This document shows, one piece after another, positions 21,235-26,486 of a stretch of 64,000 nucleotides of DNA (position 1 is its first letter; the number at the start of each line of letters is the position of its first letter). The stretch comes from Palleronia pontilimi. Lineage in GTDB: Bacteria > Pseudomonadota > Alphaproteobacteria > Rhodobacterales > Rhodobacteraceae. Where the stretch lies: contig NZ_JAEKPD010000009.1 in the NCBI RefSeq assembly GCF_016412875.1, positions 62,001-126,000 on the forward strand, written 5' to 3'. A program made the position numbers and the translations under genes. The notes beneath the pieces are model-generated. The model was not told the origin of the DNA. It saw only the letters and a program-made list of their open reading frames with translations, and ran no database searches.

Positions 21235-21260
21235 TCACCTTCCCGAAGAACGTTGCGTTC

Positions 21261-21306
21261 TTCATCTTTCCAAAAATACCTCGGGGCTCCGGGGCAGAGC
21301 CCCGGC
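21261..21306 (-). repeat. Rhodobacterales-type palindromic repeat, copy A
   Basis: A GC-rich hairpin (GGGGCTC / GAGCCCC) followed on the minus strand by TATTTTTGGAAAGATGAA. It lies between bchH and bchL. The same consensus occurs at 25053-25097 and, inverted, at 26438-26486. Similar elements are frequent between genes in Rhodobacteraceae genomes. Confidence 0.75.
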
Positions 21307-24883: not shown

Positions 24884-26429
24884 AATGGGCCTTCGCTTCG
24901 TAAAGGGTGTCGACAGAAATCTCGCGCACGCCGCGCTCGGCCGCGAAGCTTTCGGTGTTGCGCCGCGCCTTGCCGCGCACGAAGAACGGAATTTTCTTCA
25001 GCTCGGCCTCGGCCTCGGCAAGCCAAGTCACCACGTCCGCGCCACGCTCTGCTTCATCTTTTTCCAAATATCCCGGGGTCCGGGGCAGAGCCCCGGCGCT
25101 GTCCTGCCGCGCGACGGCCTTGCCGCCGTGATGCGACGGGCCCGCCGCGTCGTGGAACTCGAAATCCTCGCGGAACATGTGCAGCAGGTGCTCTTCCAGC
25201 CCCATGACCAGCGGATGCACCCAGGTGTCGAAAATGACGTTCGCGCCCTCGAACCCCATGACGGGCGAATAGCGCGCCGGGAAATCCTGCACGTGGACCG
25301 GCGCCGAGATGACGGCGCAGGGAATGCCCAGGCGCTTGCCGATGTGACGCTCCATCTGGGTGCCCAGGATCATCTCGGGTGCAGCGTCCTCGATGGCGCG
25401 CTCGACTTCCAGGTAGTCGTCGGTGATGAGCGCCGTCAGGCCGTATTCCTTCGCCGCCGCCCGCATGGGTCGCGCGAATTCGCGGTTGTAGCAGCCCATG
25501 CCGCAAACCTCGAAGCCCATCTCGTCGCGGGCGATGCGCGCGGCGGCCATGACGTGGGTGGCGTCGCCGAACAGGAACACGCGCTTGCCGGTGAGGTAGG
25601 TGCTGTCGACCGACGCGGCGTACCACGGCAGGCGCAAAGCGTCTTCGGAGGGGCGCGTGGCGTGCGGGGCCAGCGCCATGACCTCGGCCACGAAATCGCG
25701 GGTCGCGCCGACGCCCATGGGCACGGTCTTGGTGAAGGCCTGGCCCAGTTCCTTTTCGCACCAGCGCGCCGCGGCCTCGCCCGTTTCGGGATAGAGCAGC
25801 ACGTTGAAATGCGCGGCGCCCATCCGGGCAATGTCCGACGGCGTGGCGCCCATGGGCGCGCAGACATTCACCTCGACCCCCATATCGGCCAGAAGGCCGG
25901 TGATCTCGGTCACGTCGTCGCGGTGGCGGAAGCCCAGACCGGTGGGGCCCAGGATGTTGCAGGTCGGCCGCGCGGTGCGGTCCATGGGCACCGCGAGGCG
26001 GCGCACGATCTGGTAGAACGTCTCGTCCGCGCCGAAGTTTTCCTTGCGCTGGTAGGACGGCAATTCCAACGCGATGACGGGGATGCCGCCCAGGTCCATG
26101 GTCTCGGCCATGCCGCCGGGATCGTCCTGGATCAGCTCGGCGGTGCAGGACGCGCCGACGATGATCGCTTCGGGCTGAAACCGCGCGACCGCGTCCTGGC
26201 AGGCGGTCTTGAACAGATCCGCCGTGTCGGAGCCCAGGTCGCGCGCCTGGAAAGTGGTGTAGGTCACCGGCGGGCGGCGGTCGCGCCGCTCGATCATGGT
26301 GAAGAGCAGATCGGCGTAGGTGTCGCCCTGGGGCGCGTGCAGGACGTAATGCAGCCCGCGCATCCCGGTGGCGACACGCATGGCGCCCACATGGGGCGGG
26401 CCCTCATATGTCCAGACGCTGAGCTTCAT
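24873..26429 (-). CDS. bchB: Light-independent protochlorophyllide reductase subunit BchB
   Basis: BchB pairs with BchN to reduce ring D of protochlorophyllide. The 518-residue protein starts [15 protein letters not shown], carries Asp36 (QGDTYAD), the aspartate ligand to the NB cluster, and ends with the typical small domain ([20 protein letters not shown]). Residues 445-459, in the linker before that domain, are encoded by copy B of an intergenic-type repeat read in frame. Overall length is within the family range because this linker varies. It overlaps bchH by 11 bases. Confidence 0.97.
25053..25097 (-). repeat. Palindromic repeat copy B, inside bchB coding sequence
   Basis: On the minus strand the hairpin GGGGCTCTGCCCCGG is followed by ATATTTGGAAAAAGATGAAG, nearly the same as copy A. 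It is translated as [15 protein letters not shown] in the linker of BchB with no frameshift. Confidence 0.8.
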
Positions 26430-26437
26430 GGGCGACC

Positions 26438-26486
26438 GCTGGGGGCGCTGCCCCCAGACCCCCGGGATACTTGTGAAAAGATGAAG
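26438..26486 (+). repeat. Palindromic repeat copy C, between bchN and bchB
   Basis: On the plus strand, the GC-rich palindromic half (GGGGGCGCTGCCCCC) is followed by GATACTTGTGAAAAGATGAAG. It fills most of the 64-base gap between bchN and bchB, and runs opposite to copies A and B and to the operon. Confidence 0.75.

Follow-up and report, generated by a model that had tools for sequence, protein, structure and literature searches.

REP elements and REPINs are short hairpins that occur in many copies, mainly outside genes; palindromes that are read as protein are also ascribed to Wolbachia, in a title cited by PMC2229807. PMC2229807 and PMC3733652 describe the Rickettsia RPE, the closest known kind to the repeat reported here, as dispersed palindromic repeats that lie in intergenic DNA and in frame within conserved protein genes, where they are apparently tolerated; their length is given as 105-146 bp (PMC2229807). 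Set beside this description, the repeat of Palleronia pontilimi is likewise dispersed, with 34 matches of its pattern in the genome and 41 of 45 located copies between predicted genes, and likewise stands in frame within conserved protein genes (40 of 177 BchB linkers at E≤0.01; eight of 15 XdhA-like loci). It differs from the RPE in its length of about 45-65 bp and in that it fills one linker in many genera, in a single orientation and with a genome-specific tail in common with an intergenic copy. With the REP/REPIN elements that go with RAYT it shares the nature of a short, multi-copy and mostly extragenic hairpin, but it has a long one-sided purine tail. The word Rhodobacter does not occur in the main text of PMC3733652 on REP families, nor do words beginning with Rhodobact or Paracoccus in the available part of the RepRanger paper (PMC12306157), and no description of the Palleronia repeat appeared in the titles and abstract openings returned by our searches of open-licence papers.

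The window, i.e. the whole stretch of 64,000 nucleotides that was analysed, belongs to a 3.72-Mb genome in 64 contigs (genus Palleronia) and holds three copies of the repeat (Table 1). Genomes under the same genus code have BchB genes identical to those in named Palleronia records. A sequence-only reading had claimed that an intergenic-type repeat is translated in frame in the linker of BchB and that its sister copies lie between genes of the same operon, and both claims are borne out: the in-gene copy falls between the two Pfam domains of the protein (PF00148 at residues 12-407 and PF08369 at 469-513), and one sister lies between bchH and bchL, the other, which runs against the operon, between bchN and bchB, a place where antisense copies are also found in other genomes. 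The nearest solved structures are BchB subunits (e.g. 9buo and 3aek). The names bchH and bchL are based on ORFs and Pfam matches together with what we take to be the gene order of bch operons, and bchN is presumably that gene from its position in the same order. The linker is probably flexible, in agreement with a predicted structure of modest quality in which residues 405-464 have pLDDT values below 50 (mean of the whole model, 67.7).

Table 1. Positions in the window of bchB, its linker and the three repeat copies
Feature	Position	Strand	Remarks
bchB, light-independent protochlorophyllide reductase subunit B, 518 aa	24873..26429	(-)	ORF, translation, name of PDB relatives, Pfam domains
BchB interdomain linker, residues 408-468, holding the repeat	25026..25208	(-)	gap between PF00148 and PF08369
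In-gene repeat copy	25052..25096	(-)	in frame in bchB, part of residues 445-460
Parts of the bchB copy	hairpin 25080-25096; C-run 25075-25078; then GGGA, TATTT, NN and AAAAAGATGAAG to 25052	(-)	
Sister copy between bchH and bchL	21260..21305	(-)	sense, terminator-like
Sister copy between bchN and bchB	26439..26486	(+)	antisense to the operon

Read on the minus strand, the bchB copy consists of the hairpin CCGGGGC-TCT-GCCCCGG, A, CCCC, GGGA, TATTT, the free bases GG and AAAAAGATGAAG; the stretch 25052-25075, preceded by the hairpin, is CGGGATATTTGGAAAAAGATGAAG, for which a search at up to three mismatches found two matches against a mean of 0.00 expected from 100 shuffles. Folded alone as RNA, the bchB copy is no better than its own shuffles (z -0.03), and the two sister copies are somewhat better than theirs (z -1.92 and -2.15). 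A known RNA family was rejected as the identity of the repeat, as the scan of the window gave no Rfam match at the gathering score. The repeat resembles an intrinsic terminator in having a hairpin and then a T-rich stretch and in frequently lying directly after a stop codon; terminator-like sites in the region numbered 4 against 3.6 in shuffles, and the copy between bchH and bchL was the only one of the three window copies among them. The tail, however, is conserved beyond the T stretch, the bchB copy is not terminator-like, and 11 of the 41 intergenic copies do not lie behind a same-strand gene. Copy placement and the terminator-site scan thus make a plain terminator insufficient.

The genome holds about 70 copies, and the earlier description of the repeat as amplified is a fair one; it may or may not be mobile. 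A covariance model, which with just four base pairs is close to a sequence profile, finds 71 copies at E≤0.01 and 78 at E≤0.1; the pattern matches mentioned above were obtained with a 27-base pattern at no more than one mismatch, of which the reversed control gave none. A typical copy is built of a GC hairpin followed by a C-run and by either GAGGTATTT or GGGATATTT, after which come two free bases and a slightly variable GGAAAGATGAAG; both the free bases and the stems vary among the copies within one genome. Fifty of the 78 copies were examined, and the 45 with a recognisable tail were located with a simple coding-score gene caller trained on 23 ORFs of the window. Two lie inside genes (one sense in bchB, one antisense in the linker of an xdhA-like gene), 41 are intergenic, and two overlap predicted gene starts, which from reading the ORFs looks like an error of the caller. 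The intergenic copies comprise 22 in sense and 10 in antisense between genes of the same direction, eight between convergent genes and one between divergent genes. A same-strand gene precedes 30 of them; the gap from this gene to the nominal element start is at most 30 bases in 28 of the 30, two of which overlap the predicted gene end.

A side observation on these copies concerns the C-run, which matches the stem's G-run in length in 28 of 38 parsed copies (e.g. L080, L192, L197 and the window copy at 25075-25096). Six copies with the stem purines GAGGGG have the run CTCCCC, and L207 by eye has GAGAGG with CTCTCC; such a pairing of stem and C-run is a mirror, as needed for a third strand. L221, with AGGGGGA and CCCCCC, is a counter-case. 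Elsewhere in the genome, GATATTTGGAAAAAGGTGAA stands without the usual hairpin ahead of it in L002, L003, L004 and L006, in L003 and L004 shortly before an ATG.

For the survey of relatives, searches located BchB in 12 of 14 genomes of the genus (E≤1e-100) and in 119 of 295 family genomes (E≤1e-150); two of the 119 were already in the genus set, and G228, G224, G127, G089, G199, G046, G021, G034 and G171 were left out. With a named set, the sample came to 200 loci and, after removal of 23 duplicates, to 177 distinct genes of Rhodobacterales, which are not an even sample since only the best 80 of 486 named loci were taken. Hairpins alone are a weak test (stems of at least 8 in 23 of 120 linkers, 19 of 812 other bchB windows and 38 of 600 shuffled linkers), so a profile was used, built from 20 own-genome copies with the bchB copy excluded. 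It matched the linker in 33 of the 177 genes at E≤0.001, 40 at E≤0.01, 42 at E≤0.1, 48 at E≤1 and 52 at E≤10; outside the linker, the same coding sequences gave no match up to E≤1 and one at E≤10. All 52 linker matches are in sense. After seven without an anchor were left out, 43 of 45 copies were found in a common reading frame, the two others being L087, whose anchor is doubtful, and the window copy, which differs in frame from those of P. pelagia and P. salina, the nearest BchBs (91%) among the best 80 of 486 named loci. The encoded peptide varies (e.g. GKMK, GQMK, EPEK, SQKK and EEEKK). At the free bases, 39 of the 43 common-frame copies have a serine codon TCN, whereas C comes first in 20 of 40 own-genome copies outside bchB and xdhA-like (Fisher p 7e-5, with many genomes set against a single one); we infer protein-level selection where the DNA signal leaves room. 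L205 was dropped as a coding copy, its scores being weak on both sides, and a reading of L050 and L051 as decayed copies is probably wrong because a copy upstream of L050 has the same AAAGGGTGA.

Within the genus, eight of 12 BchB linkers carry the repeat at E≤10; the other four, and P. sediminis (L246), do not, so that it is absent from five of 13 Palleronia BchBs. The linker stretch measures 56-70 residues in the eight carriers and 47, 48, 49 and 56 in the four others, and family-wide the lengths overlap; the 56-residue non-carrier is L047, which holds another palindrome. On a quick BchB tree made with the linker omitted, carriers are scattered yet clustered: at least 35 changes are needed, 15 of them forced by starred branches, against a mean of 45.3 in shuffles, none of 500 of which was as low.

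Other repeats were seen in the same linkers. Six of the 177 (L047, L105, L107, L118, L127 and L132) contain another palindrome, of the form GCCCCGGATCAGGTCCGGGGC, whose translation is PDQVR (PGQVR in L118); these six stand apart on the tree and cluster no more than shuffles. A GGSMP-like stretch occurs in 18 of the 177 (L106, L111, L121, L141, L154, L256 and others) and in L106 and L121 overlies an inverted repeat around CTCGATG. The L108 linker has a perfect inverted repeat of 12 pairs, GGACGATCCTTC-GCC-GAAGGATCGTCC, which the profile does not call.

The second coding location is comparable. In the XdhA-like flavoprotein the copy is antisense and lies between Fer2_2 (77-146) and FAD_binding_5 (190-353); this linker carries the repeat in eight of 15 distinct loci, which come from 14 genomes of the genus and include three remoter ones (50-51% identity), always in antisense, and the gene outside the linker gave no profile match at E≤1 in the 15 loci. 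The copies L321 and L322 are in another frame than L319. Upstream of bchB, the repeat is found at 45 of 176 loci (E≤1), antisense in all 45, although the matches in L310 and L144 look spurious; intergenic bch copies recur at the same places in several congeners.

The tails are genome-specific. Whole per-genome counts of junction types over 55 genomes showed that many have one main form and some hardly any copies: for GATATTT/AGTATTT/GGTATTT the counts are 45/0/0 in G007, 0/0/64 in G006, 0/12/1 in G009, 0/45/4 in G156, 64/0/0 in G265 and 0/0/0 in G002 and G011. The window genome (G000) has 51 GGTATTT against nine GATATTT, and its own bchB copy belongs to the latter, minor type. Among the matches listed, the tail that follows the free bases is mostly GAAAGATGAA in G156, GACAGATGAA in G009, AAAGAGAAGAA in G262 and GCAAGAAGAA in G265, and GAACAGAAGAA among others in G297. 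By eye, the BchB copy has the form of its own genome in G007, G009, G003, G156, G297 and G035, and but for single bases in G262; its junction is unlike the main type in G006, G008, G265, G291 and G249 (few copies). In G009, 12 of 15 tail-pattern matches among those listed end in GACAGATGAA. Three of these 12 correspond in place to the window copies: one lies upstream of bchB, one is inside it, and the third, some 3.56 kb behind the gene, is placed by distance like the bchH-bchL copy.

A pair test with 5000 permutations set the antisense copy upstream of bchB against the in-gene copy from the same genome; of the 24 genomes with both, L144 was removed by hand because it looked spurious, and 16 of the remaining 23 were parsed. 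Tail identity in same-genome pairs was 0.726 against 0.553 (sd 0.032) in permuted pairs, with 0 of 5000 as high, and junction identity was 0.891 against 0.844 (p 0.03), while the free bases NN did not follow (0.250 against 0.216, p 0.38). When near-copy pairs were reduced to one row each, the tail values were 0.714 and 0.549, again with 0 of 5000 as high, and the junction p was 0.06. By eye, the upstream and BchB copies have a common tail in L113 (AACCAGAGAA), L129 (GGCCAAAAGATG) and L050 (AAAGGGTGA) and mismatched tails in L094, L244, L086 and L149. The pair test alone cannot tell tails that changed in place from independent insertions drawn from the genome's own pool.

These data qualify the proposal that the repeat had entered a tolerant linker. 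Its location in an interdomain linker and its absence from the close relatives given above stand; a one-off entry does not, in view of eight carriers among 12 congeners, 52 matching BchBs in a single orientation, intergenic bch copies at the same places in congeners and tails that tend to follow the genome type. A recent and harmless entry accounts for only half of what is seen.

The best explanation, to which we give a probability of roughly 0.55, is that these are old sites evolving in step with their family, the tail being constrained by a putative trans-acting factor. The sites look old because they recur at the same places in the same orientation, and tails that follow the other copies of a genome while free bases and stems do not are expected of sites co-evolving with a factor; the pattern seems to fit such sites more than a recent burst or whole-tract conversion. 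Against it stand the BchB junctions unlike the main type in G006, G008, G265, G291, G249 and G000 and the four mismatched pairs; the frames that differ between sisters fit re-insertion equally.

Re-insertion is the core of the main rival, in which a selfish or mobile palindrome of the RPE or REP kind, drawn from the copies resident in each genome, repeatedly enters the same tolerant linkers. Dispersal of the copies, own-type tails in many in-gene copies, scatter on the tree with its at least 35 changes, and non-carriers within Palleronia all speak for such re-entry, which we nevertheless regard as rather unlikely: orientation is constant at all three locations, the frame is constant in nearly all BchB copies, three of the roughly dozen copies of G009 occupy the same bch positions as in the window, carriers cluster on the tree, and the free bases and stems of a genome are more varied than a young burst would leave them. 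An improbable alternative is that BchB received a single insertion in an ancestor, which was then passed on vertically while protein-level selection preserved the peptide of the linker; place, orientation, mostly common frame and clustered carriers suit it, but the peptide is not conserved, many losses are needed, and the pair test disfavours it, tails being closer to the upstream copy of the same genome than to copies of other genomes. That a Gly/Pro-rich linker resembles the repeat by chance is refuted, for although GC-rich linkers yield inverted repeats even when shuffled, the tail is a 24-base exact match with 0.00 expected and none of 1770 codon-shuffled linkers reached 8 bits with the profile.

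The element belongs to a family of short genomic sites, each made of a GC hairpin, a C-run that usually equals the G-run in length, and a purine-rich tail with two free bases. In the window genome most of these sites are near gene 3' ends, and at the BchB and XdhA-like interdomain linkers they lie inside genes and are translated. On the reading of old sites co-evolving with a factor, the tail may be kept, and re-shaped in each lineage, through recognition by a putative DNA- or RNA-binding trans-acting factor; the BchB linker would tolerate the encoded peptide, and selection on the protein would favour the serine codon at the free bases. More tentatively, Rhodobacterales may possess a recognition system whose putative factor reads the hairpin, the C-run and the TATTT-NN-purine tail near 3' ends and whose specificity shifts by lineage, dragging its sites along, the translated ones included. 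That stem and C-run match in length hints that the structure read by the factor includes a third strand.

If this is true, a nucleic-acid signal, with tens of copies in many though not all of the genomes examined, would dictate part of the sequence of an enzyme, BchB and the XdhA-like protein alike. The BchB linkers constitute a natural experiment over many genera, in which a nucleic-acid signal and a protein sequence occupy the same bases, occupied and empty linkers can be compared, and the two free bases serve as a built-in control. The question of whether coding palindromes are selfish DNA or recognised sites thereby becomes testable.
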